From IMG/VR virus record IMGVR_UViG_3300036801_000473, positions 1 through 32,135 of that record: 32,135 bases of DNA; one strand, 5' to 3'. The notes under the pieces were generated by a model. The model saw only the letters and a list, made by a program, of their open reading frames with translations, had not been told where the DNA came from and did no database searches. Both the position numbers and the translations under genes were made by a program. Shown here piece after piece: positions 912 through 29,614 of this stretch. The stretch's first letter is position 1. Every line of letters starts with the position of its first letter. Origin of the DNA: a virus.

Positions 912-1002
912 CCCGTTCGCTCTGGCAGTGGCCTCCGCCCATCTTGGCGCAAGCGCACTGCACTTGGAACTTCGTTCCAGCCAGGAGCGGCGCTGGCTTT
1001 AG
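901..1002 (+). CDS. possible 33-residue ORF overlapping the previous stop
   Basis: ATG 901 lies inside the last codons of the preceding gene (ATGGCTCCTAA), so it could be translated by reinitiation. It ends at TAG 1000-1002. The peptide (MAPNPFALAVASAHLGASAL...) is Ala-rich with a hydrophobic N-terminal half. There is no Shine-Dalgarno site. It would fill the gap between two better supported small genes, but length and coupling are the only evidence. Confidence 0.25.
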   Translation: MAPNPFALAVASAHLGASALHLELRSSQERRWL

Positions 1003-1042
1003 CGGCAATCGGCCTGCACCCATTTCATGTGTGAGGATACGT

Positions 1043-1513
1043 GTGTCTCAAGATCTGATCGCCGTTTATCGCATGCACCAGCCCTCGTTCGTCTCGCCCT
1101 GCATTCTGGGTGAGCCATGTCCTGTCTGCGCGCTTCATGCCACCTGTCGGCAAAAGCAATGCAGAAGCTGCCGCGCCGGTCAGCCGTATGAGTGTGAGCG
1201 CGCTCGCATCGCCCGTCCTGCATTTTTTTTAAAGTTCACCGCTGCTTTGCGGTTGGTCAATGATGGGCTTGCCACCTTTGTTCATCGCAACTCTGCCTTG
1301 CGTTTGAATTTTGATGAGATTACGGCACTGCGCGGCCAGAGCTGCCGTATCGATCAACACCTCATCTGGCAATACGCCGTTGGTTCGCGCCGTGCTCAAA
1401 TCGCCGTGGAACTCGGCTGGAGCATACAGTCCGGTCCGTTGCGTCTCCAGGCTTTGCATCCTGAAACCAGGGCCATTCTCCTCGCGGAAGCCGGCAAGCT
1501 TGCGCCGTCTTGA
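1043..1513 (+). CDS. conserved-looking small protein directly upstream of terminase
   Basis: 156 residues if started at GTG 1043, which has GAGGA (1032-1036) six bases upstream; TTG 944 and ATG 1073 are in-frame alternatives. The N-terminal part has a Cys cluster (CPVC, then CRQKQCRSC), so another zinc site is likely. The C-terminal 90 residues are mixed helix/strand and contain a helix-turn-helix-like stretch (RRAQIAVELGW). The stop at 1511-1513 overlaps an in-frame TTG of the terminase frame. Position immediately before the large terminase is where a small terminase normally sits, but the Cys-rich start is not typical of one, so I leave it unnamed. Confidence 0.55.
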   Translation: MSQDLIAVYRMHQPSFVSPCILGEPCPVCALHATCRQKQCRSCRAGQPYECERARIARPAFFLKFTAALRLVNDGLATFVHRNSALRLNFDEITALRGQSCRIDQHLIWQYAVGSRRAQIAVELGWSIQSGPLRLQALHPETRAILLAEAGKLAPS

Positions 1514-1533
1514 ACGCAGTGCGGTCTAACATT

Positions 1534-3498
1534 ATGAAAAAGTCATCGCGCGAAAAAAAAGATCACGCAGCTCTCGCAGGCGTTGCTCCTGCGCCTGCCA
1601 TCATCGTCCCATCGCCACAAGCGCAGTCCGCTACAGATTCACAAACAGCTGCCGCCGCTGAGCCAGGTATAGCAGCTCAACCTGAAGCGGCTAAATCAGA
1701 GCAGAGCATATCTCTGCAGCAATTTGTCCGTGAAGCGTGGAGCTTCCTTGAGCCTGTCAGCACTCTTGTCTGGAACTGGCATCTCGATCTCATCTGTCAC
1801 TATCTCACGCTCATCAAACAGGGGAATTTTAAAGATCCGTCCACGCTTCAGCCTGAAGGCATAATCTTCAACGTCCCGCCGCGGACCATGAAGAGCCTTC
1901 TCATCACGGTTTTTTTTCCCATCTGGGTCTGGACCACTGATCCGGCGCGGCGTTTCATGTTTGTCTCGTATTCAGAGAAACTCAGCACGCAGCATAGCGT
2001 CTATCGCCGCAGCCTCATTGAGTCGGAGTGGTATCAGCGCAACTGGGGCCATGTCTTCTCGCTCTCGCGTGATCAGAATGTCAAAAGCCATTATGAGAAT
2101 TCCAGGCGTGGCACCATGTTCTCAACTGGCATGCAGGCCACGGCCACCGGCATGGGCGGAGACATCCTGATCTTTGACGACCCCCTCAATCCTGAGCAGG
2201 CCATCAGCCAATTGGAAAGGGAAGCCGTCAACGTGCGTTTTGATACCACCTTTCGCAGCCGCATTAATGACCCTGTAACCGGGGTAAAAATCATCATCAT
2301 GCAGCGCCTCCATGAGCTTGATCTCACCGGACACGTTCTCACCCGTGAGAGTAGCCGCTGGGAGCACGTCAGTCTGCCGGCCATTGCCCCGGAAGATAAA
2401 ACGTGGACGTTTCCCCAACCCAATCAAGAATCTAATACGGAATCTGGTCAAACGATTGGCCAAACCACTGTCCGAACGCAAACGCAGAAAGCCGGGGCCC
2501 TGCTCTGGCCAGAGCGTCTGCCGCAATCTTTTTTGGATGGACAGCGCATCGGCATGGGTAGCTGGGCCTTTAACGGACAGTACCAACAAAGCCCTGCCCC
2601 TCTCGATGGCGGCATCATCAAGCGTGCCTGGGTGCGTTTCTATCGTGAGCTGCCCGCGCATTTTGATTTCATGGTGCAATCCTGGGACTGCACTTTTTCC
2701 GGCGGCAGTGACAATGATTTTGTCGCCGGCCAGGTCTGGGGACGCTCCGCCGGAAAGTATTACATGCTCCCGTATCGTACTTATGAACGTCTCGACTTCG
2801 GCCCCACCATGGCCGCCATCAAGTCGTGCCATGCAAAATTTCCTCGCGCACACGCCATCCTGATTGAAGATAAGGCCAACGGCCCCGCCATCATCAGTGA
2901 GTTGCAAAAAGAAATTCCCGGCGTCGTGGCCGTCAATCCTGAAGGAGGCAAAATTGCGCGTGCCCAGGCCACCGCGCCGCTCTGGGAAGCCGGCAGCATC
3001 GAACTGCCTGATCCGCAAATTTTTGGTGCCCACTGGATGGAAGACTATCTCCACAATATCTGCGCATTTCCCAAAGCCGCGCATGACGATGATATGGACG
3101 CAACCTCGCAGGCCCTCATCTATATGCGCAGCCGGCTCGGCGGAGGCATTGTAGATTTCTATCGCCAGCAGGCCGCCGGGGAAGTTCAGCCCTCCGGCGA
3201 AAGCCGCAAAAGAATCGTACGACCATCTGCTGCGGGGATTACTGAAGAAGCATCTCTGTCCCGCGATGCGCTTGCCCGCCTTGTGGTTGAAGCTGTCACT
3301 CAAGGCAGCCAGATCCAATGTAATGCCAAACAATATCCAGAGATCCGTGTATCGCTTCTCAGCGCTGCCGGTCTGTCAAAAGATTCTCGTTCAGCAGAAG
3401 ATTCACAAAAGGAATCTGGGGTGCCACATGAATCGCAATCTCTGCTTATCAACCAGGAAATTAACCGGCTCGATCTTTTATTTGGATATCAGGAATGA
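1534..3498 (+). CDS. terL: phage terminase large subunit
   Basis: DNA-packaging motor: an N-terminal ATPase drives DNA into the prohead and a C-terminal RNase H-like nuclease cuts the concatemer. Numbering from the TTG at 1510, the P-loop variant is NVPPRTMKS (121-129), Walker B is DILIFDDP (218-225), and the nuclease acidic residues are D393 (QSWDCTF), D454 (ILIEDK) and the DDDMD cluster 526-530. About 80 low-complexity Ala/Gln/Ser residues precede the ATPase. ATG 1534 opens a Lys-rich start and is preferred over TTG 1510, though neither has a clear ribosome site. About 90 residues follow the nuclease core, longer than usual. The portal is not next door: 6.7 kb of accessory DNA intervenes. 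Confidence 0.95.
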   Translation: MKKSSREKKDHAALAGVAPAPAIIVPSPQAQSATDSQTAAAAEPGIAAQPEAAKSEQSISLQQFVREAWSFLEPVSTLVWNWHLDLICHYLTLIKQGNFKDPSTLQPEGIIFNVPPRTMKSLLITVFFPIWVWTTDPARRFMFVSYSEKLSTQHSVYRRSLIESEWYQRNWGHVFSLSRDQNVKSHYENSRRGTMFSTGMQATATGMGGDILIFDDPLNPEQAISQLEREAVNVRFDTTFRSRINDPVTGVKIIIMQRLHELDLTGHVLTRESSRWEHVSLPAIAPEDKTWTFPQPNQESNTESGQTIGQTTVRTQTQKAGALLWPERLPQSFLDGQRIGMGSWAFNGQYQQSPAPLDGGIIKRAWVRFYRELPAHFDFMVQSWDCTFSGGSDNDFVAGQVWGRSAGKYYMLPYRTYERLDFGPTMAAIKSCHAKFPRAHAILIEDKANGPAIISELQKEIPGVVAVNPEGGKIARAQATAPLWEAGSIELPDPQIFGAHWMEDYLHNICAFPKAAHDDDMDATSQALIYMRSRLGGGIVDFYRQQAAGEVQPSGESRKRIVRPSAAGITEEASLSRDALARLVVEAVTQGSQIQCNAKQYPEIRVSLLSAAGLSKDSRSAEDSQKESGVPHESQSLLINQEINRLDLLFGYQE

Positions 3499-3631
3499 AA
3501 ATCGTAAAAACGAAATCAGATGCTTAGCTGCAAGACGCGTTGACCCAGCAAATTTCAGTGGAGCGCAGCCGCCTCGGCGGCGTTGCAACTGCCAGAGAAA
3601 TGATCGTTGTACTTACAGACTCTCAACCACC

Positions 3632-3741
3632 TGTCATCCTGAGCGAAGCCACCATAACGTATATTTCTCAAGAACTGAACGGCGCGTAGTCGAAGGATCC
3701 CGAGAATGGCTGAAGCGCTCATGCCGCATCAAGGCATTCTC
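3632..3741 (+). repeat. interspersed repeat, copy 1 (TGTCATCCTGAGCGAAGC ... AGTCGAAGGATCC)
   Basis: TGTCATCCTGAGCGAAGC at 3632-3649 is followed 38 bases later by AGTCGAAGGATCC (3688-3700) and then a GAGAATG...CATTCTC hairpin. A second copy with the same two conserved ends lies in the opposite orientation at 29733-29803, without the hairpin. I recall similar elements as common intergenic repeats in some soil bacteria, but have no database confirmation. Confidence 0.6.
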
Positions 3742-3889
3742 ACGATACAACATTTGTGATTAGAGAAAGGTTCATTTAAATACACACCGGATTGCATGCT
3801 TTTCAAAACTATCGCGATCCCGAAAAAACAAACCAATCTCTAATTTGAACTTGTATGGATACGAAAATACTTCAAGCGTATACGCTCCA

Positions 3890-3981
3890 GCGCCGTTAGG
3901 CGCGACAGCGAGCGCATGCGAGCCTAGCCCAGGCCGTAAGGCCTGGGTAAGCAAGAAGAAACGATTAAGCCCCGTAGGGGC
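3890..3981 (+). repeat. cluster of three REP-like hairpins
   Basis: Three perfect short hairpins follow one another: GCGCC-gtta-GGCGC (3890-3903), CCCAGGCC-gtaa-GGCCTGGG (3928-3947) and GCCCC-gta-GGGGC (3969-3981). All share a loop centred on CCGT(T/A)AGG-like sequence, which suggests one repeat family rather than three independent terminators. No U-tract follows any of them. Confidence 0.6.
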
Positions 3982-4045
3982 GAGACAAACCCAATTCGTC
4001 CATCGCAAAATCACTGGACTCCACTGTCTGAATAGGGAGGACAAC

Positions 4046-4204
4046 ATGCAAACTGACGCGCAATTCATCGCGGCGCTGACTGCCTATTTATTTCAATCGA
4101 ATGAAGCCTCGGCTGTTCCACTGTTTTACCAACCTGATGGCTCCATCAATCGCACTAAAACTCTCACTCTGCCGTGCTATGCCAATTTCACATCAGAACA
4201 ATGA
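4046..4204 (+). CDS. small hypothetical protein
   Basis: 52 residues from ATG 4046, with a strong GGGAGGA site (4034-4040) five bases upstream; this ribosome site excludes the longer upstream reading from 3845, which runs through the hairpin cluster. No signal peptide or membrane segment is visible. The peptide ends with LPCYANFTSEQ. It converges on the outer-membrane barrel gene and the two reading frames overlap by 12 bases tail to tail. No family recognised. Confidence 0.55.
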   Translation: MQTDAQFIAALTAYLFQSNEASAVPLFYQPDGSINRTKTLTLPCYANFTSEQ

Positions 4205-5683
4205 CGGCCGGCTCGATCCACCCAGAAGCGTATTACTCACATTGGCCAGAATATGCGTTCCTTCGTGGCCCCATGCAAATTGCAGTGAGAAAACCGGTAA
4301 ACCTCCGGCGCGAACCGTGAAACCCGCCGCATAAGTATGGATCCACGGATTCGATCCCAGGTCGCTTCGCAGCAATGCCACTTTGCCTTGATCGGCTGAG
4401 AGCAAAAGACCTAGTGGCCATTTCCCCAGCGTGTGCTCAAACGCTTCGCGGATCAGCAGCACATTTGGCGCGCGGAACCGATAATCCGTGTAGGCACCCA
4501 GTGAGGAATTGCCGTTAATGTCGCCTCCACCCAGCGTTGGCTGAAAATAAAACGGCACGCCGCTGCTGCCCTGCATCATGGAAAGTGATGAGAAAGCACG
4601 CAAACTCAATGTGCCTACTTTGTTGCGGCTAAATTGCGTGTCGCATGTCTTTACCCGGCTCGGCACTTCTCCCGTAATCGGGTCTTTTGGCGGTTGGTCT
4701 CCAGAGCAATCGTCGGGGCCGTTTGTTGTGCGGGCCGTTGGAAATCCTTTTCCGTAAAGCTGGAATTCATGCTGTAGATCGGCCGTCAGGCGCGTAAAGG
4801 TAAAGCGTGCATCTGCTGGGGCCAGGTAGGGGCGGAAAGAAAGGTCATAATCCAGATGCAGGCGTTTCCAGTCCGGCGCCATTCTGGCTCCAACGCCAAG
4901 TTGCAGGAAGAATGGCTGCGTCGTCAATCCGGGCGCACTCGCTTCCGTATAAAAAGACTGCGTCGTCGGCAGCAGGGAGCTATCGCTGGGCGTGCGAATA
5001 TCAACCCATCGTCCGTTCAGCTCGGCATAAACGCTGGCATTGACTTTGTGATCGTTCAACGGTTTAATTACGCTCGCGCCCACAATGCTTTCTCGCATGC
5101 CAAAGAATGAGCGGCCTGAGAGTGTGCTGTCCGGTCCCTGGCCAAAGAACATCAGTTTGTTCAGCGTAATGGTCTGCGCATAAACATTGATTACTGGCTG
5201 CTCGTCGATTCCTGTGGGGTTGTCCGTGCTGATCCCCTTCGTGCCTTTTTGGATTCCCACCGGTTTCACCCGTGAATCCACAAACTTCAGGTAGACGCCG
5301 GTGCGCCATGACAAATTGGGTGACACCACGGCATCGGCATTCCATGTGTTCCGCCAGTTGCCGCTCACAGTATTGTGGCCGCCAACAAAGGCCGCTCCTG
5401 CGGCAAAGCCGTTCTGCGGAGCGATGCTCCCCACGGCAATATGCACAGGCTGCCCCGTGAATAAGACTTGGAGACAGCCAATTGGGCTCTTAAAAGGGCT
5501 GCTGAAACTGCAGCTCTTCTTGAACTGGCCCATCTCGGTCGCCGGATCAAAGTCCTTCGCGCTGGGCGGAGTCGGTGAAGGCGATGGAGTGGGGTTTGGC
5601 GTCGGCGTCGGAGTTTGCGCCAAAGCTGTGCTGGCAAAAAACAACAGCAAGATACAGACAATCGTTTTCACATCAGCCCTCAT
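4193..5683 (-). CDS. predicted outer-membrane beta-barrel protein
   Basis: 496 residues. A Sec signal peptide (MRADVKTIVCILLLFFASTALAQ) is followed by a Thr/Pro/Ser linker (TPTPTPNPTPSPSPTPP) and about 450 residues of alternating polar/hydrophobic strands with many aromatic girdle-type residues, ending in Phe (RPSLF), as outer-membrane proteins do. It is the last gene of a minus-strand operon after a phosphoesterase and an 86-residue protein; its ATG overlaps the upstream stop by four bases (ATGA). A prophage-encoded surface barrel would act as a lysogenic-conversion factor, for example a porin or receptor mask, but that is inference. I cannot assign a specific family. Confidence 0.7.
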   Translation of the reverse strand: MRADVKTIVCILLLFFASTALAQTPTPTPNPTPSPSPTPPSAKDFDPATEMGQFKKSCSFSSPFKSPIGCLQVLFTGQPVHIAVGSIAPQNGFAAGAAFVGGHNTVSGNWRNTWNADAVVSPNLSWRTGVYLKFVDSRVKPVGIQKGTKGISTDNPTGIDEQPVINVYAQTITLNKLMFFGQGPDSTLSGRSFFGMRESIVGASVIKPLNDHKVNASVYAELNGRWVDIRTPSDSSLLPTTQSFYTEASAPGLTTQPFFLQLGVGARMAPDWKRLHLDYDLSFRPYLAPADARFTFTRLTADLQHEFQLYGKGFPTARTTNGPDDCSGDQPPKDPITGEVPSRVKTCDTQFSRNKVGTLSLRAFSSLSMMQGSSGVPFYFQPTLGGGDINGNSSLGAYTDYRFRAPNVLLIREAFEHTLGKWPLGLLLSADQGKVALLRSDLGSNPWIHTYAAGFTVRAGGLPVFSLQFAWGHEGTHILANVSNTLLGGSSRPSLF

Positions 5684-5940
5684 TTGCTGTTCGCGCGTTT
5701 TTTCGTTGCCGGTTTTTTAGGCTTGCCCGCCTTTAGCAGCATGGCTGTGACCTTCTGAATGTATTCGGCGGCTTGCCCTTCCGTATGCAGCGTCGCAATA
5801 TTCGTGCCGGTGCGTTGTTTCGCAGGCAGCTTCTGCTCCGCTGTGCTCAGGTGAATCAACTGCATCTGGATCAATCCTGAAATCGTGCGGTCAGGATTGT
5901 AAGCTTCTTTCTCCACTGCGGGAACGTCGATTATTTTCAT
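5680..5940 (-). CDS. small basic protein in phosphoesterase operon
   Basis: 86 residues starting at the ATG complementary to 5938-5940, with AAGGA eight bases upstream; an extension to 5970 would overlap the phosphoesterase. The core (ISGLIQMQLIHLSTAEQKLP) looks helical and the C-terminus is Lys-rich (KPKKPATKKRANSK), like nucleic-acid or phospholipid head-group binding tails. It is sandwiched between the phosphoesterase (10-base gap) and the barrel (ATGA overlap), so the three are probably cotranscribed. No known family recognised. Confidence 0.65.
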   Translation of the reverse strand: MKIIDVPAVEKEAYNPDRTISGLIQMQLIHLSTAEQKLPAKQRTGTNIATLHTEGQAAEYIQKVTAMLLKAGKPKKPATKKRANSK

Positions 5941-5950
5941 AGCTCTGTCC

Positions 5951-7192
5951 TTACAACCTGAAGGCCACACAATCGTCGTCAGGACGCATCGTATCAGTCA
6001 GCAGATCGAGAAATGTTTCTGCTTCTTTCTCTCGCTCAGTGCGGTCGTCGTACTCTCCCAGAAAACGGCTGGTCACCGTCGCGGGAATGGAAGCGTGTTC
6101 AAAGATGCGTTGCTTGCCCGGATCTTCCGTTCCGGGCACAATCGTTCCTCTTGGGATCCAGGGAGAAATCGCAATCGCAGGAACGCGCACACCCAGGCGG
6201 TCAAAATTGAAGGCCTGTCCCGTTCCAGTGGTGACTGGTTTGGCTGAATACGGCGGCTTTCCCGCCAGCCCGTCCACGCCTTTGCAGTTCGGTGGAATTA
6301 CATGGTCGTACATGCCTCCATGTTCGTCGTAGACCACCAGCAGCAGCGTGCTCTTCCACAGATCGGCATTCGTGCGAATCACGTTATAAACCTGCGCAAT
6401 GAAACGTTCTCCGGCTTTCATGTTGTGGTCAGGATGCTGGTCAGTTGCCAGAATCTGTCCTCCTCCCGGCCCCGGATGGTCCGAATAGTTCGGCTCGATA
6501 AAACAATATTCCGGTAGCTTGCCGGCCGCCGCGTCTTTCACAAAATCGCTGTAGACGCCGAACAGCTCCGGCTGATTTTGCAGCAGGTTCGGAACTTCCA
6601 GACTCGAGCTCTGCATATCGTAGTAATAAAGTTTCGAAGAATGGCCGCCTTTGTTCATGCGGTCGTAAATACTGAGAATCGGATCGGTAATGTAGAAAAT
6701 GTTCATGTCCACATTGCCAAACGAAGTCCCGTAATGGGCGAATGCGCGATTGCACAGCGTCGGCCCTGGTATAGAGGCGAACCATCCGTTAAAGAGCGCG
6801 TATTCCGTGGCCAGCGTCGTGAGTATCGGCAGTTGTTGCGGCGTAAAGTAATACATGATCGCATGCGACTCGTCGGTATTCGTGCCTTGGGTCATGTAGC
6901 TCTTGATAAAACCCTGCATGTTGGCTACGCGATCTGGCGTCGTGTTGCCGTTAAAAATTTGCAGGTCCACGCCGGCAAAGTGGTGGTCCGGATCGTGGCC
7001 GAATTGTCCTTGGAACGCCGCTTTCGGCTGCACCAGCACCTTGGCGCCGGTGTCGTCTGGGTTCCACTCATCCCGGTTCAGCCCATTGATGTTGGAATTT
7101 GTTTGTTTCATCGCGCCTAGCATGTGATCGAAGGAGCGGTTCTCCATCATTAACACAACAATATGTTTGAGATTGTCCAGCCCTTGCGCCAT
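5951..7192 (-). CDS. phosphoesterase family protein (phospholipase C / AcpA-like)
   Basis: 413 residues with hallmarks of the PF04185 phosphoesterase family: ENRSFDHMLG (17-26), PGPTLCNR (142-149), the metal-binding VYDEHGGMYDH (288-297), RLGVRVPAIAISPW (332-345) and FEHASIPATV (364-373). Family members cleave phosphodiesters or phosphomonoesters such as phospholipid head groups. The usual N-terminal Tat or Sec signal is absent: the protein starts MAQGLDNLKHIVVLMMENRSFDH, directly at the fold. The start has GGGAG five bases upstream. First gene of a three-gene minus-strand operon with a small basic protein and an outer-membrane barrel. Cytoplasmic location would be unusual, so the product may leave by lysis or act inside the cell. 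Confidence 0.88.
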   Translation of the reverse strand: MAQGLDNLKHIVVLMMENRSFDHMLGAMKQTNSNINGLNRDEWNPDDTGAKVLVQPKAAFQGQFGHDPDHHFAGVDLQIFNGNTTPDRVANMQGFIKSYMTQGTNTDESHAIMYYFTPQQLPILTTLATEYALFNGWFASIPGPTLCNRAFAHYGTSFGNVDMNIFYITDPILSIYDRMNKGGHSSKLYYYDMQSSSLEVPNLLQNQPELFGVYSDFVKDAAAGKLPEYCFIEPNYSDHPGPGGGQILATDQHPDHNMKAGERFIAQVYNVIRTNADLWKSTLLLVVYDEHGGMYDHVIPPNCKGVDGLAGKPPYSAKPVTTGTGQAFNFDRLGVRVPAIAISPWIPRGTIVPGTEDPGKQRIFEHASIPATVTSRFLGEYDDRTEREKEAETFLDLLTDTMRPDDDCVAFRL

Positions 7193-7471
7193 GAGGAACT
7201 CCCTTCGTCCCGCATCCCGGATGCGTACGCAACTATCTCTCTTGCTTTTTCTTGCTCAATACTAAAGTGGGGTGATGGCAGCAGACGTTACATAAAGTTT
7301 GAAGATAGCTTGGAAGTTAATCGGTAGACTAAGGTGAGTCTCTTAACCTGCATTGGCAATTTTTGATTCATGAGAAAGAAGCAGTCCGTATGGTAGCGCC
7401 GCACAGTTCACTCCGCGTCAGCATTGGGTAAGGTCAGGAATAACAATGAGCCCCTTTTTGAGCAATACAAA

Positions 7472-8167
7472 TTATGTCCCTCGGCTGAACATTTTGACCT
7501 GTTTCACCGGATACGCGCACAGCTCCTTCACCGCACACTCATAACATTGCGGGGATTTATCGCGGCAGATTTCTTTGCCATGTTGCCGCAACAACAAATG
7601 CGCCTGGGCAATGGCCTCGGCTTTGCGTGGAAGCTCTGGTTTCAACGCCTCCTGCACGGACCTGTAGGCAGCGCCATAATTTTTCTGCCACCGTCCATAA
7701 CCAACGCGTGTAAGCACTCGTAGTCCGTTCCATTCCAGCGGTAACCCCGGCGATGAGCCACAAAACATCAAAATCTTTTCCGCGCCGGGGTCGCCAACAT
7801 TAGGGAACTGCTTCAACGCTTTCTTGGCCTGCGCATAGGGCAGCTTGAGTATCGGGTCCAGGTCGCCATCAAACTGGCTCAGCGTGATACGTGCAATTTC
7901 CTGCCAGCGAAATACTCGCACCTTGGGACGCATGCCTCCCATCGTAGCTAGCTCCAGCAGGATATCGGGATTGGCTTTCAGGATTGCTTTCGGGGTCAGC
8001 CCGATTTGTTTCCGCAGGCCCTCGAAAACGGTGGCACGCCGCTCATCAGGCAGTAGGTAGCAGGCATTTTCCCACATCACCAGTTCGAACGGCCCTTTGG
8101 CCGGAGGCATTATGGGAGCGCCATAGCGGCTCTTAAGCTTTGCAATTATTTTTTTGAATTCCGGCAT
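7472..8167 (-). CDS. endonuclease III-like HhH-GPD / [4Fe-4S] protein with atypical active site
   Basis: 231 residues. A helix-hairpin-helix (LKQFPNVGDPGAEKIL, about 118-133) and four C-terminal cysteines C201-x6-C208-x2-C211-x5-C217 match EndoIII spacing exactly, so the fold and cluster look intact. EndoIII removes oxidised bases using a Lys in the hairpin and an Asp in a VDTHxxRV motif. Here the Lys position reads Pro in VGDPGAE, and the Asp motif reads LEWNGLRV, with Glu145 and Trp/Asn in place of Asp, Thr and His. It may be a DNA-binding relative, a glycosylase with another specificity, or inactive. No clear ribosome site; GACTAAA at 8177-8183 upstream resembles sites near the next gene. 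Confidence 0.75.
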   Translation of the reverse strand: MPEFKKIIAKLKSRYGAPIMPPAKGPFELVMWENACYLLPDERRATVFEGLRKQIGLTPKAILKANPDILLELATMGGMRPKVRVFRWQEIARITLSQFDGDLDPILKLPYAQAKKALKQFPNVGDPGAEKILMFCGSSPGLPLEWNGLRVLTRVGYGRWQKNYGAAYRSVQEALKPELPRKAEAIAQAHLLLRQHGKEICRDKSPQCYECAVKELCAYPVKQVKMFSRGT

Positions 8168-8221
8168 TTTATTTTGGACTAAAACAAATGCTGATCAGCG
8201 AAGACCCATGTTGAGTTAAAG

Positions 8222-8233
8222 CCCCTGCAGGGG
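8222..8233. repeat. perfect palindrome CCCCTGCAGGGG
   Basis: A 12-base perfect palindrome between the EndoIII-like and winged-helix genes. It resembles the AGCCCC-type hairpin ends elsewhere in the window. A second palindrome, GCTGATCAGC, is at 8190-8199, 23 bases upstream of the EndoIII-like start. Confidence 0.4.
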
Positions 8234-8254
8234 TGGTACGTAATAGACATATTT

Positions 8255-8295
8255 ATGCCTGTTAATTCCAAAATCCATTTTAATAGGCATTTTTT
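8255..8295 (+). terminator. inverted repeat with T-tract between two minus-strand genes
   Basis: ATGCCTGTTAA (8255-8265) pairs with TTAATAGGCAT (8280-8290), 10 of 11 positions, and is followed by TTTTT on the plus strand. No plus-strand gene precedes it, so it may instead be an operator or a structure at the 3' end of the winged-helix transcript. Confidence 0.35.
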
Positions 8296-8319
8296 GGCTG
8301 TTTAATAGCAAGTTCGAAC

Positions 8320-8727
8320 TCAAGATTGCAAGGATTGAAACCTTGCGTCGTCTGTTTTCTCAATCTCACCGCCTTCCACCATGCGCCGTAGCACGGTGTG
8401 AATAGAAGACAATAGATTCACCTGGTCTCTGCCGATACCGATTTTCAGCAGATCGTCGCGAACGTCAACCGGGCTCAGCGCCTTCTTGTGAATGCGGAAC
8501 AGCCGCCGGATAGCATCTGTAAATCCCATGCCTGAGTCAATGGCAAAGCCCTCGGTCAGCAGCAGTTTGTCGATCTCGTCCGGGGACGCGCCGCACAGTT
8601 CGCCCAGTGCTTTGACTGTGTGTTTCAGTTTGCGGATTTGCAGGTCAATTTGGTCCCGTTTCTGCAGCTGTTTAAGCAGATCAAGTTTTGCTGTCTCGTA
8701 AGCCTGGCTGTATGCGGGTCGCGCCAT
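8320..8727 (-). CDS. coiled-coil plus winged-helix DNA-binding protein (probable regulator)
   Basis: 135 residues. Residues 10-45 form a charged coiled coil (KLDLLKQLQKRDQIDLQIRK); residues 68-130 form a winged helix (DAIRRLFRIHKKALSPVDVRDDLLKIG, then VLRRMVEGGEIEKT), resembling HARE-HTH or related folds. Its own upstream region carries two GTCTAAA copies 11 bases apart (8739-8745, 8750-8756) and a TTTAGTCTAAA palindrome (8735-8745), and a strong promoter faces the other way at 8806-8835. That arrangement fits an autoregulated switch. With no CI-type gene in the window, it could be the lysogeny or island regulator; this is inference. Confidence 0.65.
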   Translation of the reverse strand: MARPAYSQAYETAKLDLLKQLQKRDQIDLQIRKLKHTVKALGELCGASPDEIDKLLLTEGFAIDSGMGFTDAIRRLFRIHKKALSPVDVRDDLLKIGIGRDQVNLLSSIHTVLRRMVEGGEIEKTDDARFQSLQS

Positions 8728-8734
8728 AAGTGTC

Positions 8735-8756
8735 TTTAGTCTAAATAATGTCTAAA
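8735..8756. promoter_or_regulatory. candidate operator: TTTAGTCTAAA palindrome and GTCTAAA direct repeat
   Basis: TTTAG-T-CTAAA (8735-8745) overlaps the first of two GTCTAAA copies spaced exactly 11 bases (8739 and 8750), i.e. about one helical turn. A related GACTAAA lies at 8177-8183 upstream of the EndoIII-like gene, and TTTAGAT occurs near 8788. Spacing and recurrence suggest a protein-binding site, most simply for the adjacent winged-helix protein. Confidence 0.45.
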
Positions 8757-8805
8757 CCCATAGTCAATCATTATTGGCATATTTTGTTTAGATTTATTTT
8801 TACTA

Positions 8806-8835
8806 TTGACATTTAAAATTGAAGTGTCGTATAAG
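8806..8835 (+). promoter_or_regulatory. strong sigma70-type promoter TTGACA-N18-TATAAG
   Basis: TTGACA at 8806-8811 and TATAAG at 8830-8835 are separated by 18 bases in an AT-rich patch that stands out from the surrounding DNA. The predicted start of transcription, about 8842, coincides with an ATG, so a leaderless mRNA is possible. It is the best -35/-10 pair I found in the window. Confidence 0.65.
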
Positions 8836-8841
8836 ATGTCT

Positions 8842-9021
8842 ATGCAAGACAGCAGTATGTCTTGCCTGCCGGGAGCGGCGCCGGCACCCAACGGCCTGCA
8901 CCCTTTCTTCACTGAGCATGAAATTCCGCTCCTGAAGAAACCATCCTGGGCGACCTTTGTTTTGGTGCCGTGGACCTGCTTCGGCAGAGCTGCGTCTTCA
9001 AACAATGGTAGCCGGACCTGA
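8842..9021 (+). CDS. possible leaderless 59-residue ORF
   Basis: ATG 8842 sits at the expected transcription start of the promoter at 8806-8835 and has no ribosome site; ATG 8836 is directly after the -10 element. The codons have high GC at the third position like neighbouring genes. The peptide contains hydrophobic and Trp-rich stretches (PSWATFVLVPWTCFG). No family recognised. The promoter might instead serve the zinc-ribbon gene at 9153. Confidence 0.4.
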   Translation: MQDSSMSCLPGAAPAPNGLHPFFTEHEIPLLKKPSWATFVLVPWTCFGRAASSNNGSRT

Positions 9022-9152
9022 GCGGGATTGCTCCGCCCACTCCGCGTGCCCTGGATGATCTGATTCCCAAAAACTGTCTACTCAACAAAATATTGCCATC
9101 TCAGGCCGATCCTCTTGCTTTGCCGGTCTGTGTCCGGCGAAGAGGTGTTTCC

Positions 9153-9353
9153 ATGCATCACCATCCTGATGGCCGTGTTGTTCCGCCACGCTGTGAAGAA
9201 TGTAACGCGCCACTTACTTCAGACGAACATTCGCTCACTTCAACCTCCACGCGGTTTTACTGCCTGGAATGCCAGCTTGCACTAAATCCATTTCCCCGCG
9301 AACGACCACAACAAGTTCGCCGCCACACAACTGGTGAAAGAGCGGCACTTTAG
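9153..9353 (+). CDS. small zinc-ribbon protein
   Basis: 66 residues from ATG 9153, with AAGAGGTG (9140-9147) just upstream. Two CxxC pairs (RCEECNAP and YCLECQLA), separated by about 22 residues, form a likely zinc ribbon; a His-rich N-terminus (MHHHPDGRV) may add ligands. A hairpin TTTGCCGG/CCGGCGAA (9119-9126 with 9134-9141) ends immediately before the ribosome site and could modulate translation. Probably transcribed from the promoter at 8806. Function unknown. Confidence 0.6.
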   Translation: MHHHPDGRVVPPRCEECNAPLTSDEHSLTSTSTRFYCLECQLALNPFPRERPQQVRRHTTGERAAL

Positions 9354-9378
9354 CCTCGCTAAGTGACGCAATAACCCC

Positions 9379-9391
9379 GGGCTTTAGCCCC
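9379..9391. repeat. GGGCTTTAGCCCC motif, inverted copy of 28438-28450
   Basis: The 13 bases are the exact reverse complement of GGGGCTAAAGCCC at 28438-28450. Both copies are in intergenic DNA. It is itself a near-perfect hairpin (GGGCT/AGCCC) and probably belongs to a short host repeat family. Confidence 0.45.
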
Positions 9392-9428
9392 GCTAATAGG
9401 CTGAATGCTCTTAGCTTTGCCTGCTCAT

Positions 9429-9464
9429 TGCATCAGCGATTTGGCGCATATCGACATAAATAAA
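9429..9464 (+). repeat. 36-base leader repeat, copy A
   Basis: First of three imperfect copies (9429-9464, 9533-9568, 10190-10225). It agrees with copy B at 30 of 36 positions, including the whole CGACATAAATAAA end. Unlike the other copies it has TTTGGCG instead of the TTTGGAG ribosome-site core and no ATG follows in place. Confidence 0.6.
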
Positions 9465-9532
9465 GCAGTGAGGCCGCCCCACGCGCCGAGCTGCGTGCAA
9501 CAAGCGCGGAACGCTCTCAGCCCGCTGATCAC

Positions 9533-9568
9533 TGCATAAGCGGTTTGGAGCGCAGCGACATAAATAAA
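9533..9568 (+). repeat. 36-base leader repeat, copy B
   Basis: Copy B carries GCGGTTTGGAGC, then CGACATAAATAAA. Six bases after it begins a 7-codon ORF coupled to the secreted-protein gene. It matches copy C at 29 of 36 positions. Confidence 0.6.
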
Positions 9569-9573
9569 ACCAC

Positions 9574-9597
9574 ATGAATAAAAGGAAAAAATCATGA
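9574..9597 (+). CDS. 7-codon leader ORF (MNKRKKS) coupled to the next gene
   Basis: ATG 9574 is about 26 bases after the start of TTTGGAG in repeat copy B. The ORF ends TCATGA, its TGA overlapping the ATG of the secreted-protein gene at 9594. It could be a translational-coupling device; it could equally be chance, as AAGG within it also serves as ribosome site for ATG 9594. Confidence 0.25.
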   Translation: MNKRKKS

Positions 9598-10133
9598 CCA
9601 GAAAAAGTTTAGTTTTCATCATCGCCGTCCTCTGCGTGACCACCACGCTCGTCATGCTGTCCCAAACCTCCAGCCAGGCCCCGGAAATGGACAAAAACGG
9701 AAAGCCAATCTTGCCGCGACCCCTGCCGCACGTGGTTTACTCGCCGGCTGATCTCTCCCACAGTGGTGTCACACTGCCTGCTTCCATCGGCGGGGCTACC
9801 ACCAGCACCAGTATTATCCGCGTTGGCGACGCCACCAAGATGACCGTCTTCGCCACTTGCTCGCAAAACTTTGATCTGGTCATGAATGTCTATACTGCTG
9901 ACGACCAGAGCCAGTCCAATCCAACATTCACTCTCTATAACAGTTACACCATCGCCACGGCCATGGCCTCTGGAGCGCAGCAGACTTTTCTGGCTGACGA
10001 ACTAGCGCCTACAGTCACCAGCGGCACACTCGCGGCTCCGGTCCGTCTGCCGCAATTGGCTGTCTCTTTCTTTGAGAAGAATGACGTTGCCACTGCAGGC
10101 GTCTGCACTGATCGCGTCATCGTCGGCTATTAA
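9594..10133 (+). CDS. secreted hypothetical protein upstream of portal
   Basis: 179 residues with an N-terminal hydrophobic export signal (RKSLVFIIAVLCVTTTLVML) and likely cleavage near SSQA. The mature part is beta-rich, Thr/Ser/Ala-rich and ends in VIVGY, with two cysteines (ATCSQ and GVCTD) that might pair. AAAAGGA precedes ATG 9594, and a 7-codon leader ORF overlaps the start. It lies between the accessory island and the portal. No family recognised; a periplasmic conversion factor or a virion decoration are both possible. Confidence 0.65.
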   Translation: MTRKSLVFIIAVLCVTTTLVMLSQTSSQAPEMDKNGKPILPRPLPHVVYSPADLSHSGVTLPASIGGATTSTSIIRVGDATKMTVFATCSQNFDLVMNVYTADDQSQSNPTFTLYNSYTIATAMASGAQQTFLADELAPTVTSGTLAAPVRLPQLAVSFFEKNDVATAGVCTDRVIVGY

Positions 10134-10189
10134 CTACTAAGCGCCGCGCTGCTCGCACACGCGCTGAATCCATTTAATTTCTCAAATGC

Positions 10190-10225
10190 TGCGAAAGCGG
10201 TTTGGAGCAAAGCGACAAAATGAAA
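10190..10225 (+). repeat. 36-base leader repeat, copy C, containing the portal start
   Basis: The copy runs TGCGAAAGCGGTTTGGAGC to AAAATGAAA and so contains both the GGAG ribosome site and the portal ATG (10220). The T-to-A and A-to-T changes relative to copy B create the start codon. A shorter TTTGGAGCAAA match precedes the protease gene at 11814. Confidence 0.55.
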
Positions 10226-11701
10226 AGCACTGACATATTCAAGAACGGAAAAATAGCTGCGCTGGATTCCGGACTGCCAGAGCTTGGGCTTGCGGCCCGT
10301 GTCGGTCGCAAGCTCAGGAACACCATCGACGTCTGGTTTGGGCCTGATCTGCCCATGTCACCCAGTGCTCCGGCAGGCACGCCACCGCGCACACTCGATT
10401 ATCCCGTCGGTTACAACATCAACATTCAACCGCGCAACATGGAGCCCATCTCGTTCCACCAGATGCGTTCCCTTGCTGACTCGTTTGATCTTGTACGTCT
10501 CTGCATTGAGACGCGCAAAGACCAGGTCAGCCGGATGCCCTGGGCCTTTCGCAAAAAATCTCAGCCCGGCCACGCGAAAAACATTGACGCTCGCGGCAAC
10601 AAACCTTTCGGCGGTGAAGACAATGAAGAGAGTGATCCCCGTCTCGCGCAGTTGACGGATTTCTTTTCATATCCAGATAAAGAACACACATGGCAGCAAT
10701 GGGTGCGCTTGTTGCTTGAAGACCTCCTCGTCATCGACGCCCCGGTGCTGGTTCCCATCGTCTCTCAGGATGGCGAGCTCTGGTCTCCGGGCAAACAGCT
10801 TTATGCCCTTGAGGTCATTGATGGTTCAACCATCGCGCGCAAGATCGACTCCATGGGGCGCACGCCCGCATCACCTGCCATTGCTTATCAACAGATTCTC
10901 AAAGGCTTGCCCGCCGTCGATTTCACGGCGGACCAGCTCATCTATCGTCCGCGCAACGTGCGTGCGCATAAATTCTTTGGCTTCTCTCCGGTTGAGCAGA
11001 TCATTCTCACCATCAATATCGGTCTGCGTCGGCAGATTCACCTGCTGAATTACTATACTGAGGGCAACGTGCCGGAAGCCGTGGCGCAGGTTCCCAAAGA
11101 GTGGTCCGCCGATCAGATCAGTGAATTTCAGGATTGGTTTGATAGTTCTCTCGCCGGAAACTCCGCGCGCCGCCGTCGCATCACCTTTGTTCCGGAGTGT
11201 GGCACTCTCCAATTCACGCGCGATCCCATGCTCAAGGATGCGCTTGATGAATGGATTACCCGCATCGTCTGTTACGCCTTCGGTCTCTCGCCGCAGCAAT
11301 TTGTTAACGCCATGAACCGTGCCACTGCCGAGACCAGCGTTGAGCAAGCTGCCGCGGAAGGCCTTGTGCCAGTTCTTGGGTACCTGGCAGACACCATTAA
11401 CTTCATCGTGCATCGTCATTTCGGCTTCAATGACATCGAATTTGTCTGGGAACAGGACCGCACCTTGAATGCGCTCGAGCAGGCAAAGATTGATGACATT
11501 TATGTCCGCGCGGGCGTTCTTTCCATTGATGAAATTCGCCAGGAACTTGGCAAACATTCTCTCGGGATTAAGAATGCTGTCATCACCAGTACCGGAATTT
11601 GTTTGCTGCAGGGGCAAGATTCATCGAATGGCTCAGCTTCGTCAGATATTTCCAGCATAAGGCAGGTTGGACCAGAAGCCGACTCTTCTTCAAATAAATA
11701 A
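10220..11701 (+). CDS. phage portal protein (HK97 type)
   Basis: 493 residues from ATG 10220, with GGAG at 10204-10207; TTG 10202 is an upstream alternative. The portal forms the dodecameric ring through which DNA enters and leaves the head. Family features are the N-terminal wing with LVRLCIETRKDQVSRMPWAF, the NYYTEGNVPEAV stem region, and the C-terminal segment CYAFGLSPQQFVNAMNRAT with TSVEQAAAEGLVPVLGYL. The last 40 residues are Ser-rich and probably disordered. It is separated from terL by the accessory island but directly precedes the protease, the usual order. Confidence 0.95.
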   Translation: MKSTDIFKNGKIAALDSGLPELGLAARVGRKLRNTIDVWFGPDLPMSPSAPAGTPPRTLDYPVGYNINIQPRNMEPISFHQMRSLADSFDLVRLCIETRKDQVSRMPWAFRKKSQPGHAKNIDARGNKPFGGEDNEESDPRLAQLTDFFSYPDKEHTWQQWVRLLLEDLLVIDAPVLVPIVSQDGELWSPGKQLYALEVIDGSTIARKIDSMGRTPASPAIAYQQILKGLPAVDFTADQLIYRPRNVRAHKFFGFSPVEQIILTINIGLRRQIHLLNYYTEGNVPEAVAQVPKEWSADQISEFQDWFDSSLAGNSARRRRITFVPECGTLQFTRDPMLKDALDEWITRIVCYAFGLSPQQFVNAMNRATAETSVEQAAAEGLVPVLGYLADTINFIVHRHFGFNDIEFVWEQDRTLNALEQAKIDDIYVRAGVLSIDEIRQELGKHSLGIKNAVITSTGICLLQGQDSSNGSASSDISSIRQVGPEADSSSNK

Positions 11702-11734
11702 ACATCCGTAACAATCTGAATTAAATATCACAGC

Positions 11735-11762
11735 TTGTCGTAGCTGGCTGATTTCATAATGA
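11735..11762 (+). promoter_or_regulatory. weak promoter candidate TTGTCG-N16-TAATGA
   Basis: TTGTCG (11735-11740) and TAATGA (11757-11762) are 16 bases apart in the portal-protease gap. The -35 hexamer is identical to that of the moron promoter at 17856. It could boost head-gene expression. Low support. Confidence 0.25.
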
Positions 11763-11786
11763 GCACGTAAGTATCGCTACCACCTC

Positions 11787-11807
11787 AGGCAGCCCTCTGG
11801 GCTGCCT
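11787..11807 (+). terminator. perfect 9-bp hairpin before the protease gene
   Basis: AGGCAGCCC (11787-11795), loop TCT, GGGCTGCCT (11799-11807), followed by TTCCCTTT and then the GGAG ribosome site. The weak U-tract suggests partial termination or a processing/stability hairpin. The same GGCAGCC core recurs at 18621, and related stems at 14791 and 28202. Confidence 0.5.
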
Positions 11808-11827
11808 TTCCCTTTGGAGCAAAATAC

Positions 11828-12910
11828 ATGAAAAACCGCCTGAACCTTTTCGCCCAGATCGCCAAGATTGACGAGTCGAAACATGAAGTCTGGGGCATCG
11901 CCACCGCTGAAGTCATCGACAAAGAAGGCGAGATCTTCGATTACGACTCCTCTAAACCCTATTTCAAAAAATGGAGTGACGAAATCTCCAAAGCCACAGA
12001 CGGCAAGAGCCTGGGTAATGTGCGTGAAATGCATGCGCCTAGTGCTGTCGGCAAACTTGTCGCCATTGATTTTGACGACGATCTGAAACAAGTCCGCGTC
12101 GGCGCGCGCATCGTCGATAGCGTTGCCTGGCAAAAATGCATGCAAGGCGTCTATACCGGCTTCAGCATCGGCGGCGCTTATGTCAAAGCTTGGAAAGAGG
12201 GCGAGTATGTACGCTTCACCGCCAAGCCAGTGGAAATCAGCGTGGTCGATAACCCTTGCGTCCCCGGTGCCCACTTTACCGCCGTCAAGGCAGACGGTTC
12301 TTTTGAAGTGCGTAAGTTCAACTCAAACACGCGCGCACTCAAGATCGGCGCTCGCCATTCCAAAGAGACACTATCTCATCTCGCCGCCGCTAAAGCGTGT
12401 ATGGACCAGATGGCACAGAACAACCAGGACGCAAGCAGTCATCTTGATGCGCTCTTGGATAACAACAACGCCGGTTCAGCTGCCATGTTGGCCGCCGGAG
12501 AAATCAACAAGTTTCCAGGCGACCCACGCCCCGGAATAAAGACAGGAGAACAAACAATGTTGGATGCAAACGATAAAGCGCAATTGGAAAAGGCGCATGC
12601 TGGCTCCGCTGTGGCGCTCGCCAAACTGGCCGCAATGGAGCATGACGTGGCCGGCTTGCGAAGTGAAATGGAAAGCAATAATCAGGAGATCCAGCGTTCG
12701 CTGAATAATCTCCTCGCGTTGGTGGAAAAGCTTGTGCAGCCGCGTGATGCCGGAGCGCGGGTTGCGCGTACTGGCATGCCCACGCACACCGTAACCAAGG
12801 AAGATGACGCTCACCCATCTCTAGCAAAGTCGGCGGGCGAACCTAGTGTTCATGAAATGCTTAAACGGACGCTGCAAAAGCCTCAGCCCGCCTCTGTCTA
12901 TTTGCGCTAA
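11828..12910 (+). CDS. XkdF-like prohead protease fused to scaffold domain
   Basis: 360 residues. Residues 1-155 match the serine protease type that matures HK97-like proheads: EVWGIATAEVIDKEGEIFD, H69 in REMHAPSAVGK, S113 in VYTGFSIGG, and the VEISVVDNPC strand (135-144). Residues 195-340 are helical and charged, as expected of a scaffold (SEMESNNQEIQRSLNNLLAL). An in-frame ATG at 12557 with its own AGGAG would make the scaffold part alone. The start follows TTTGGAGCAAAATAC. Order portal, protease, capsid is canonical. The protease assignment rests on motifs; the exact family name is from memory. Confidence 0.85.
   Translation: MKNRLNLFAQIAKIDESKHEVWGIATAEVIDKEGEIFDYDSSKPYFKKWSDEISKATDGKSLGNVREMHAPSAVGKLVAIDFDDDLKQVRVGARIVDSVAWQKCMQGVYTGFSIGGAYVKAWKEGEYVRFTAKPVEISVVDNPCVPGAHFTAVKADGSFEVRKFNSNTRALKIGARHSKETLSHLAAAKACMDQMAQNNQDASSHLDALLDNNNAGSAAMLAAGEINKFPGDPRPGIKTGEQTMLDANDKAQLEKAHAGSAVALAKLAAMEHDVAGLRSEMESNNQEIQRSLNNLLALVEKLVQPRDAGARVARTGMPTHTVTKEDDAHPSLAKSAGEPSVHEMLKRTLQKPQPASVYLR
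12557..12910 (+). CDS. nested scaffolding protein (internal start)
   Basis: ATG 12557 is in frame with the protease gene (codon 244) and has AGGAG at 12544-12548, eight bases upstream, in the context GACAGGAGAACAAACA. Translation from here gives a 117-residue, mostly helical protein beginning MLDANDKAQLEKAHAGSA. Lambda does the same with C and Nu3, where a separate scaffold is made from inside the protease gene. The site is seen directly; use of the start is inferred. Confidence 0.6.
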   Translation: MLDANDKAQLEKAHAGSAVALAKLAAMEHDVAGLRSEMESNNQEIQRSLNNLLALVEKLVQPRDAGARVARTGMPTHTVTKEDDAHPSLAKSAGEPSVHEMLKRTLQKPQPASVYLR

Positions 12911-13220
12911 CCCCGCAAGACCTGCTTTCTCCGTCTTTTCCGGTTCGGGATGTATCCAGCCAACAGGATGGAGCAGGTTTGCCTTGAGCGACTGCGCAAA
13001 AACGAAGAGCCCAACGGCTTTTTTATGTCTGCCCTTAAGGCCATCAGATGCCTGTTCTCGAATTGCTTTTTTCTTGACCACTCTGATTCGCGCATCCGCC
13101 ACTGGGTGGAGCAGGCATTTATGCCTGCGGCAACTTGCCAGTAATTGGTCGGCTTTAGCCACTGAGGTAAAAAATTCCACACAACAACCGCTCTTCTAAG
13201 CGGAGAAAAGGAAATTAAAA
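12911..13220 (+). other. 310-base leader of the capsid gene, hairpin-rich
   Basis: I see no convincing gene; a 64-codon frame at 12950-13144 contains the hairpins and has no good ribosome site. Structures: AGCC-caac-GGCT followed by TTTTTT (13009 to 13025), GCAGGCAT-tt-ATGCCTGC (13111-13128), and CCGCT-cttcta-AGCGG (13188-13203) just before the GGAGAAAAGGA ribosome site of the capsid gene. This is the longest leader in the head module and may control capsid expression. Confidence 0.5.
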
Positions 13221-27413: not shown

Positions 27414-28136
27414 CTAACCCTGCTTTATCAGAAAAGCACTGCCGCATGAGTTCTGTATGACTTTTTCTGGTTTATCGGCCATGAAATCGTCCACGGCTTT
27501 TTTAGCGCCGGGGCAGGTCATGAATCCGTAGTCATCGCAAACCAGAAGGCCGCCGGGGTTCATGCGCGGATAGAAGAAACTCATGCTATCGGCGGTGGGC
27601 TGGTGCATATCCACGTCAATATGGACGAAGGAGAAGCGCCGGTCAGCAACGTCATTGAATCGTTCCGGTATCCAGCCGGGGTGGATGCTGATTTTGGCGT
27701 CGGGGCGCTTGATCTCGTCCACTCCGCAACTGAGGTCGCCCTTACGCCAGTAGCCGAAGCCGTCAATACTGGTGGGGGCGGAGACGCCCTGAAAAGAATC
27801 AAAGAGAAAGTGCGTGCGCTGCTGCGCGCCGGATTGCGTGGCTTTGCAGATGAGATAAGAGCCCGCACCCTGCCATACGCCGCATTCAGCCGTATCGCCG
27901 GGAACGGGAACGGACATGAGCGCGAGCTGGTAGAGCATCCAGCGGCGGTCCATGTTTTCCTGAATTTCATCATAGCGCTCAAAAAAGGCGTTGAATTCCT
28001 TGTCTCGCCACCAGACCAGGCTGGGCCAGGTAAAGCGATAGCCCGGCATGATGAATTTACCCAGGGTCCGCAGGATGGAAAATCTTACTTCTTCCCGTGA
28101 TTGCGGGTTCTTGAACTCCAATAATCGTCTTAGCAC
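27414..28136 (-). CDS. TylF/MycF-type O-methyltransferase
   Basis: 240 residues; GTG start (complement of 28134-28136) without a visible ribosome site. SAM-dependent methyltransferase of the macrocin O-methyltransferase type: DTAECGVWQGAGSY (81-94, SAM loop), FLFDSFQGVSAP (110-121), HIDVDMHQPTADSM (172-185, acidic metal ligands) and PGGLLVCDDYG (194-204). Relatives methylate sugar hydroxyls. Reverse orientation beside the fibre gene, with stop codons abutting (TAGCTA at 27411-27416), marks it as cargo; methylating surface polysaccharide of the lysogen to block adsorption is a plausible role. Confidence 0.82.
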   Translation of the reverse strand: MLRRLLEFKNPQSREEVRFSILRTLGKFIMPGYRFTWPSLVWWRDKEFNAFFERYDEIQENMDRRWMLYQLALMSVPVPGDTAECGVWQGAGSYLICKATQSGAQQRTHFLFDSFQGVSAPTSIDGFGYWRKGDLSCGVDEIKRPDAKISIHPGWIPERFNDVADRRFSFVHIDVDMHQPTADSMSFFYPRMNPGGLLVCDDYGFMTCPGAKKAVDDFMADKPEKVIQNSCGSAFLIKQG

Positions 28137-29098: not shown

Positions 29099-29614
29099 AT
29101 GGCCGATTTCAAGCCGGCTTTTGCATTTGTATTGCAGCATGAAGACGCGGTGCGAGCAGGCAAGGTGACGGTGGATGCCGGTGGGCGAACGCGCTTTGGC
29201 ATTGCGGAGAAGTTTCACCCTGAGCTGCCGGAAGATTTTTTCAGCGGGCCGGCGGAAGACGCGTTGCTGACGGCGGAGAAGATTGAAGAAGATCAATATT
29301 GGAAGCCGATGCGTTTGGACGAGATCGGGAACCAGGCCGTGGCCAACAAACTATTGGATATGGCGGTGAACATGGGCGTCCGGCAGGCCGCGGTTTATGC
29401 GCAGCGTGCAGTAAATATGCTGGCGGGGAGTGCGCGCCTGGCAGAAGACGGCGTGATGGGCGCGCGGACACTGGCGGTGGTGAATGCCGTGAATTCGGAT
29501 GCATATGAGCAGCGGCTATGCGAGTTGAGCGTGGCGCATTACCGGCATGTGGCAGCGGTGAATCCGGCGCAGGCAGTGAATTTGCGGGGATGGTTGAAGC
29601 GGGCTGAGGCGTGA
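29099..29614 (+). CDS. endolysin, GH108-type N-acetylmuramidase
   Basis: 171 residues; GGGAGG upstream of ATG 29099. N-terminal FAFVLQHEDAVRAGKVTVDAG contains the catalytic Glu15 in HEDA (EGG in many relatives), followed by DAGGRTRFGIAEKFHP (26-41), the GH108 signature. The C-terminal part (AVYAQRAVNML, DGVMGARTLAVVNAV) matches the PG_binding_3 domain. No signal peptide, so export would need a holin. It cleaves the peptidoglycan glycan chain at lysis. Confidence 0.88.
   Translation: MADFKPAFAFVLQHEDAVRAGKVTVDAGGRTRFGIAEKFHPELPEDFFSGPAEDALLTAEKIEEDQYWKPMRLDEIGNQAVANKLLDMAVNMGVRQAAVYAQRAVNMLAGSARLAEDGVMGARTLAVVNAVNSDAYEQRLCELSVAHYRHVAAVNPAQAVNLRGWLKRAEA

Follow-up and report, generated by a model that had tools for sequence, protein, structure and literature searches.

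An exchangeable cargo slot and a probable fixed control module between terL and portal in a temperate Acidobacteriota phage

The packaging genes terL and portal are normally adjacent in phages. In the stretch of DNA analysed here, an IMG/VR record of 32,135 bases (the window) that we read as a temperate siphovirus-like phage of Acidobacteriota, a phylum of soil bacteria, 6.7 kb lie between the end of terL (3498) and the ATG start of portal (10220). This island is the subject of our study, and two described systems come closest to it. Phage morons, the cargo of lysogenic conversion (PMC6469090), resemble it as variable genes in the structural region, on the opposite strand, apparently with an own promoter, of host origin and dispensable across relatives. 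The island differs from them by its site between terL and portal, by holding a whole host operon and by its coupling to a fixed promoter and RNA module, and its expression in the lysogen is a prediction. The putRNA of phage HK022 is about 70 nucleotides (nt) long, forms two stem-loops, has one copy directly behind a promoter and is present in two copies per genome (PMC9378689). An RNA of the island likewise has two stem-loops in about 70 nt behind a promoter and two copies in the window genome, but it heads morphogenesis instead of early genes and has a GAGCGGC loop, a 3' motif and host copies; the likeness is one of layout. We consider it probable that the 6.7 kb combine a cargo slot with a fixed control module, and that a captured operon in this slot has been exchanged between phage backbones.

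The first-pass annotation had described terL and portal as split by minus-strand genes, which gene calls and profile matches of the flanks bear out. From the left, the minus strand carries an outer-membrane protein, a protein of 86 amino acids (aa), a phospholipase C (PLC), an endonuclease III (EndoIII)-like protein and a winged helix-turn-helix (wHTH)-like protein; after this block, the plus strand carries a 66 aa Cys-rich and then a 179 aa exported protein. The flanks and the cargo genes of the window are:

1510–3498, plus strand: TerL, fixed left flank (PHROG 38, E 3.6e-100; PF17289, E 3.4e-17)
4193–5683, minus strand: cargo, 496 aa exported, predicted outer-membrane protein (signal peptide recognized by eye; homologues adjoin PLC in host chromosomes)
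5680–5940, minus strand: cargo, 86 aa middle gene, kept between the PLC and outer-membrane genes in phages and many hosts
5951–7192, minus strand: cargo, phospholipase C / phosphoesterase (PF04185, E 4.4e-67; PDB relative non-specific PLC4, E 1.7e-56)
7472–8167, minus strand: cargo, EndoIII-like protein with a 4Fe-4S motif (PDB EndoIII, E 1.2e-11; NCBIfam NF053634, E 1.4e-12, below its cut-off)
10202 (TTG) or 10220 (ATG) to 11701, plus strand: portal, fixed right flank (PHROG 2662, E 1.1e-68; PF04860, E 2.6e-16)

Relatives were gathered by a TerL scan together with a portal-profile scan, which yielded about 30 close phages (portal 80–87%) and more distant ones. Twelve phages of the close clade, the window included, have a complete terL-portal gap. 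Its length ranges from 2.6 to 6.7 kb and its contents vary between the PLC operon, HipBA with EndoIII, EndoIII alone, a broken EndoIII copy and none of these. The PLC trio was found in seven phages of the clade, complete in the window, L009 and L035 and in the left-cut contigs L008, L023, L024 and L036; the nine remaining close-clade phages with a complete gap lack it. In L002 the same site is occupied by HipA and HipB (PF07804, E 1e-47; PF13657; a neighbouring helix-turn-helix gene), and the distant relative L267 likewise carries HipBA inside the gap, so this toxin-antitoxin pair is an alternative cargo in both, absent from the window itself. EndoIII is the only cargo in L003, L028 and L256, and broken copies of it are found in L007, L029 and L035. 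L019 and L020 have neither the PLC operon nor HipBA nor EndoIII in the gap, L034 keeps a short remnant only, and in the distant L004, L039 and L283 the gap holds little beyond the 179 aa gene. The position of EndoIII also changes: in L009, L024 and L035 it lies on the side of the PLC operon that faces terL, in the window on the side that faces the wHTH-like gene. The earlier proposal of a cargo hotspot with fixed flanks, for which a comparison of this junction had been suggested, agrees with these differences: between terL and the wHTH-like gene lies a minus-strand slot with exchangeable contents. Morons share this presence or absence at a fixed place between close relatives.

The PLC operon spans 7192–4193 on the minus strand. 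Its earlier label, a phosphoesterase operon, suits a PF04185 gene followed by the 86 aa gene and by the gene of a 496 aa protein that has a signal peptide. The PF04185 match reaches 227 bits against a cut-off of 23 and covers profile positions 2–353 of 356; together with this whole-domain match, the ENRSFDH and DEHG motifs and the PDB relatives, NPC4 and a bacterial PLC, tie the protein to the non-specific PLC family, and from family and motifs PLC chemistry is likely. It differs from that family in having no signal peptide and in being encoded together with the 86 aa and outer-membrane proteins, and with the profile for phosphocholine-specific PLC (TIGR03396) it scores 117.9 bits, below the cut-off of 580.25. 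Two of the three operon proteins are without any Pfam match, the 496 aa protein among them. A GG..Y.DYRFR motif of the latter seemed to resemble Omp85, an assignment dropped after Pfam and PDB Omp85 profile searches found nothing, and its AlphaFold model (pLDDT 30) is too low in confidence to be used.

Homologues of the outer-membrane protein at E below 1e-76 occur in about 36 of the 399 genomes of the host class. PLC adjoins them in all 30 host loci fetched, often with the small gene between, and phage structural genes are absent around the host operon in the 20 longer stretches inspected. PLC, small protein and outer-membrane protein thus form a widespread operon in Terriglobia chromosomes (e.g. 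L122–L141). In trees rooted by midpoint, the phage PLCs form one clade (support 98/96), as do the phage outer-membrane proteins (99/97). Because both clades sit beside the same three hosts, a single capture from a Terriglobia chromosome appears as the simplest reading, and this nesting among hosts gives the cargo the non-phage, horizontal origin expected of morons. Two alleles of the operon, about 64–66% identical, circulate in the phages. L036 has a backbone resembling those of L024 and L035, yet carries the allele of the window, whereas L009, with a backbone of its own, carries the other allele at 89–90%. Alleles and backbones are thus discordant, and the cargo therefore moves between phage backbones. 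All genes measured are under purifying selection (dN/dS 0.03–0.15). A scan of IMG/VR returned close PLC copies at this slot only, apart from L297, an unrelated temperate phage that carries an integrase, another TerL and a PLC and outer-membrane-protein pair of its own (9989–12966, encoded against the direction of its terL and portal). If our reading is true, two unrelated phage lineages took up a conserved and unstudied host operon of phospholipase and outer-membrane protein, and a cargo slot exists at a predictable place in a phage group that infects dominant soil bacteria and has been little studied.

We lean towards the view that the minus-strand cargo genes are transcribed in the lysogen, against the direction of the late operon, as genes of lysogenic conversion, and that the PLC would split phospholipids for phosphate scavenging or lipid remodelling together with its outer-membrane partner. 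The only pointers to an own transcription of the cargo are a conserved minus-strand promoter (8767–8738) and the opposite orientation of the genes. The operon might instead serve a fixed phage function, for instance lysis or membrane remodelling during lytic growth, and it has indeed been in the clade long enough for two alleles to exist under purifying selection. Such a function, however, sits poorly with nine close relatives whose complete gaps lack the operon, with a strand opposite to the late genes and with alleles that swap between backbones, and we regard it as improbable. The bacterial origin of the operon could also raise the suspicion that bacterial DNA was joined to a phage contig during assembly. 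The chance of such an artefact is negligible, as it is refuted by independent contigs: the same arrangement, with edges joined to phage genes, recurs in seven contigs from different samples.

The first-pass annotation had regarded the whole island as cargo. This applies to the minus-strand operon and EndoIII, which vary, but not to the wHTH-like gene, the promoter with the RNA and the 66 aa and 179 aa genes, whose position is the same in essentially all close relatives and which are therefore core. A large part of the island's right half is thus fixed, which had been overlooked, as had the promoter and structured RNA at 8806–8903 and an RNA copy at 962–1021. These elements are:

8320–8727, minus strand: core, 135 aa wHTH-like gene, kept by nearly all close relatives that have this stretch; L009 lacks it
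8738–8767, minus strand: conserved promoter with two TTTAGAC repeats
8806–8835, plus strand: conserved promoter TTGACA-18-TATAAG (alignment of 19 phages)
8838–8903, plus strand: core, structured RNA with two hairpins and a conserved 3' motif (covariation; matched by model R1; no Rfam match)
9153–9353, plus strand: core, 66 aa Cys-rich, zinc-ribbon-like protein, CxxC pairs conserved in relatives
9594–10133, plus strand: core, 179 aa protein, either exported or anchored in the membrane, predicted to be rich in beta structure; found in every relative, the distant ones too
962–1021, plus strand: structured RNA, second copy, ahead of the gene that precedes terL, no clear promoter (model R1, 45.7 bits, E 4.7e-8)

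The two promoters stand back to back between the wHTH-like and 66 aa genes and are conserved in 19 phages, and directly behind the plus-strand one come about 70 non-coding bases that are highly conserved; promoter, RNA and position are all conserved. A gene is indeed present where a winged helix had been annotated, but Pfam, PHROGs and NCBIfam gave no significant match for the 135 aa protein, so that the family name serves as a label only; the protein is likely a regulator. The small plus-strand open reading frames (ORFs) noted earlier correspond to the 66 aa and 179 aa genes. The latter is present even in distant relatives with an otherwise empty gap, and the AlphaFold model of its product is moderate (pLDDT 76) with no confident fold match. 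The fixed module would restart plus-strand transcription into the portal operon past the minus-strand cargo.

The most novel item of the island is the structured RNA. A 25-row alignment supports its two hairpins, with 95.6% of the cells paired and nine pairs changed on both sides, figures that include four compatible pseudoknot pairs which do not covary themselves. None of 500 shuffles scored as high, a comparison that related rows can win, and slid controls, which preserve relatedness, were 33–47% paired. Between L004, L267 and the 962–1021 copy of the window the stems differ by compensatory changes and the GAGCGGC loop is unchanged. The covariance model R1, for which the 962–1021 copy is also a row of the underlying alignment, found a member in the G353 prophage, outside its training set, at E 0.007 and at the right place and strand. 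Further matches in L283, L289, L290 and L291 are not independent finds, since pattern searches for this very motif had supplied their loci. In the distant phages L004, L267, L144 and L283 the RNA sits upstream of the terminase genes, and the 962–1021 copy has the same relative place as in the first three of these. Phage copies are always in sense, at the head of morphogenesis genes, in two different places. Presumably the RNA originally headed the terminase-portal genes, and a copy or the RNA itself later came to the island with the wHTH-like gene.

Other identities of this stretch were considered. A small ORF (MSMQGGSW...) is ruled out by 1-nt indels (L003, L016, L023), an early stop (L002) and the covarying stems. 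As a host repeat it fails too: among 399 genomes the exact pattern occurs only in the prophage, besides two matches without the flanking features. It is no known Rfam family; the covariance models of Rfam 15 gave no match to the window stretch (E up to 5) or to four host loci (E up to 1). A pseudoknot between the loop of the second hairpin (H2) and the 3' motif fits nearly all rows and is not claimed, as it shows no two-sided changes; possibly the 3' motif pairs alternatively, in competition with H2.

The RNA was initially taken as phage-only, a view overturned by a search with covariance model R2 across the phylum and by a relaxed pattern search; a first scan with a GC-rich pattern had mostly given chance matches. 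Four chromosomal loci were found in G001 and G279 (G001 C298 and C285, G279 C3 and C5; L308 and L315–L317), each directly behind a TTGACT promoter, and the RNA is therefore not phage-specific. At three of them an HNH_repeat (PF18780) gene follows a few hundred bases downstream. The fourth, G001 C285, is syntenic with a G279 site and keeps RNA and promoter, while the HNH_repeat gene is gone. In two host loci the sequence in common with the phage RNA extends past the hairpin (CGGCCTGCAACCT ... GGCGTACCGTnTGCGTC). The remaining weak matches in the phylum are taken as chance because the conserved loop is missing. The RNA may belong to this host group as a mobile regulatory RNA.

Tentatively, and with slightly more doubt than belief, we propose that the RNA at 8838–8903 founds a new class of structured regulatory RNA, which would be common to Acidobacteriota phages and to host loci linked to HNH_repeat genes, and which phages moved or copied from the head of the terminase genes to the terL-portal junction. 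This new start of promoter and RNA would have allowed the cargo slot to open without severing late transcription. It would suggest how normally paired genes get split, the second gene gaining its own promoter and leader, and a new structured RNA would have a function directly testable in the phage late operon. That the RNA acts on its own transcript has, in our estimate, a little under an even chance. It could be a small RNA acting in trans on other transcripts, with its own promoters in phage and host and an incidental position before late genes. The host copies, which stand behind consensus promoters, somewhat favour such an independent RNA, as does G001 C285 with its retained RNA and promoter although the HNH_repeat gene of the syntenic site is lost; but the sense orientation at the head of morphogenesis genes in both phage positions, and the failure to find a clear terminator directly behind the 8838–8903 RNA, leave us doubtful. 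By analogy with putL of HK022, also about 70 nt with two hairpins directly behind a promoter (PMC9378689), the RNA might be an antitermination leader that alters RNA polymerase, so that the portal-to-tail operon would be read through terminators. That it heads the late operon in distant relatives would fit. However, the likeness is one of layout, put itself works on early genes, no put counterpart is known for the conserved loop or the 3' motif and the host copies are without long operons, which makes a leader of this kind unlikely. Weighing against our own interpretation of the island are several relatives that are contig fragments ending inside the slot, a PLC without signal peptide although its outer-membrane partner has one, and the RNA of G001 C285, which has no downstream gene of its own and so speaks against a purely cis-acting role.

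The EndoIII-like gene annotated on the minus strand is present at 7472–8167. With the EndoIII family its product shares an HhH-GPD-like region and the 4Fe-4S cysteine motif C-x6-C-x2-C-x5-C typical of Nth; it differs by altered GVGxKT and VDTH motifs and by scores far under the NCBIfam cut-offs. By alignment position against PDB EndoIII, the catalytic Lys and Asp are replaced in all eight aligned copies, which have NVGDPG or NIGDPG for GVGxKT and LEWN for VDTH. Because the 4Fe-4S motif is kept and the canonical catalytic residues are lost in every aligned copy, the protein is expected to bind DNA without the usual glycosylase/lyase chemistry. A defence system was considered and rejected, as PADLOC yielded just weak fold-level matches to this protein. 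The EndoIII-like gene of L002 (6550–7338, minus strand) contains two copies of a 17-residue repeat (PGLPLPPHQAKPGLAGG), inserted in frame.

The remaining features of the window are:

9428–9469, plus strand: host-type repeat, copy 1
9532–9573, plus strand: host-type repeat, copy 2
10189–10230, plus strand: host-type repeat, copy 3, at the portal start
29099–29614: GH108-type endolysin
31203–32135: tyrosine integrase

The host-type repeats and the repeat at the portal start, both reported in the first annotation, are real. The three copies are 74–81% identical, and their core, GCGGTTTGGAGCGMAGCGACA, has 23 occurrences in G001, the genome of a related lysogen, and none in 40 further genomes of the class; a second host-type repeat, TGTCATCCTGAGCGAAGC, was found in 15 of 41 genomes. 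The portal-start repeat lies in phages mostly between the 179 aa gene and portal. The prophage of G001 (L007), an Acidobacteriaceae metagenome-assembled genome, is the closest relative within a cellular genome (portal 84%), and its contig runs on into non-ribosomal peptide synthetase genes and tRNA-His. The window also encodes small Cys-rich proteins, a protease, a putative capsid protein, an adaptor, a tape measure and tail proteins. A 52 aa ORF between terL and the cargo (4046–4204, plus strand) has a good ribosome-binding site and no known relative. At the right end of the tail genes, a TylF/Methyltransf_24-type methyltransferase (27414–28136, minus strand) possibly marks a second cargo site.

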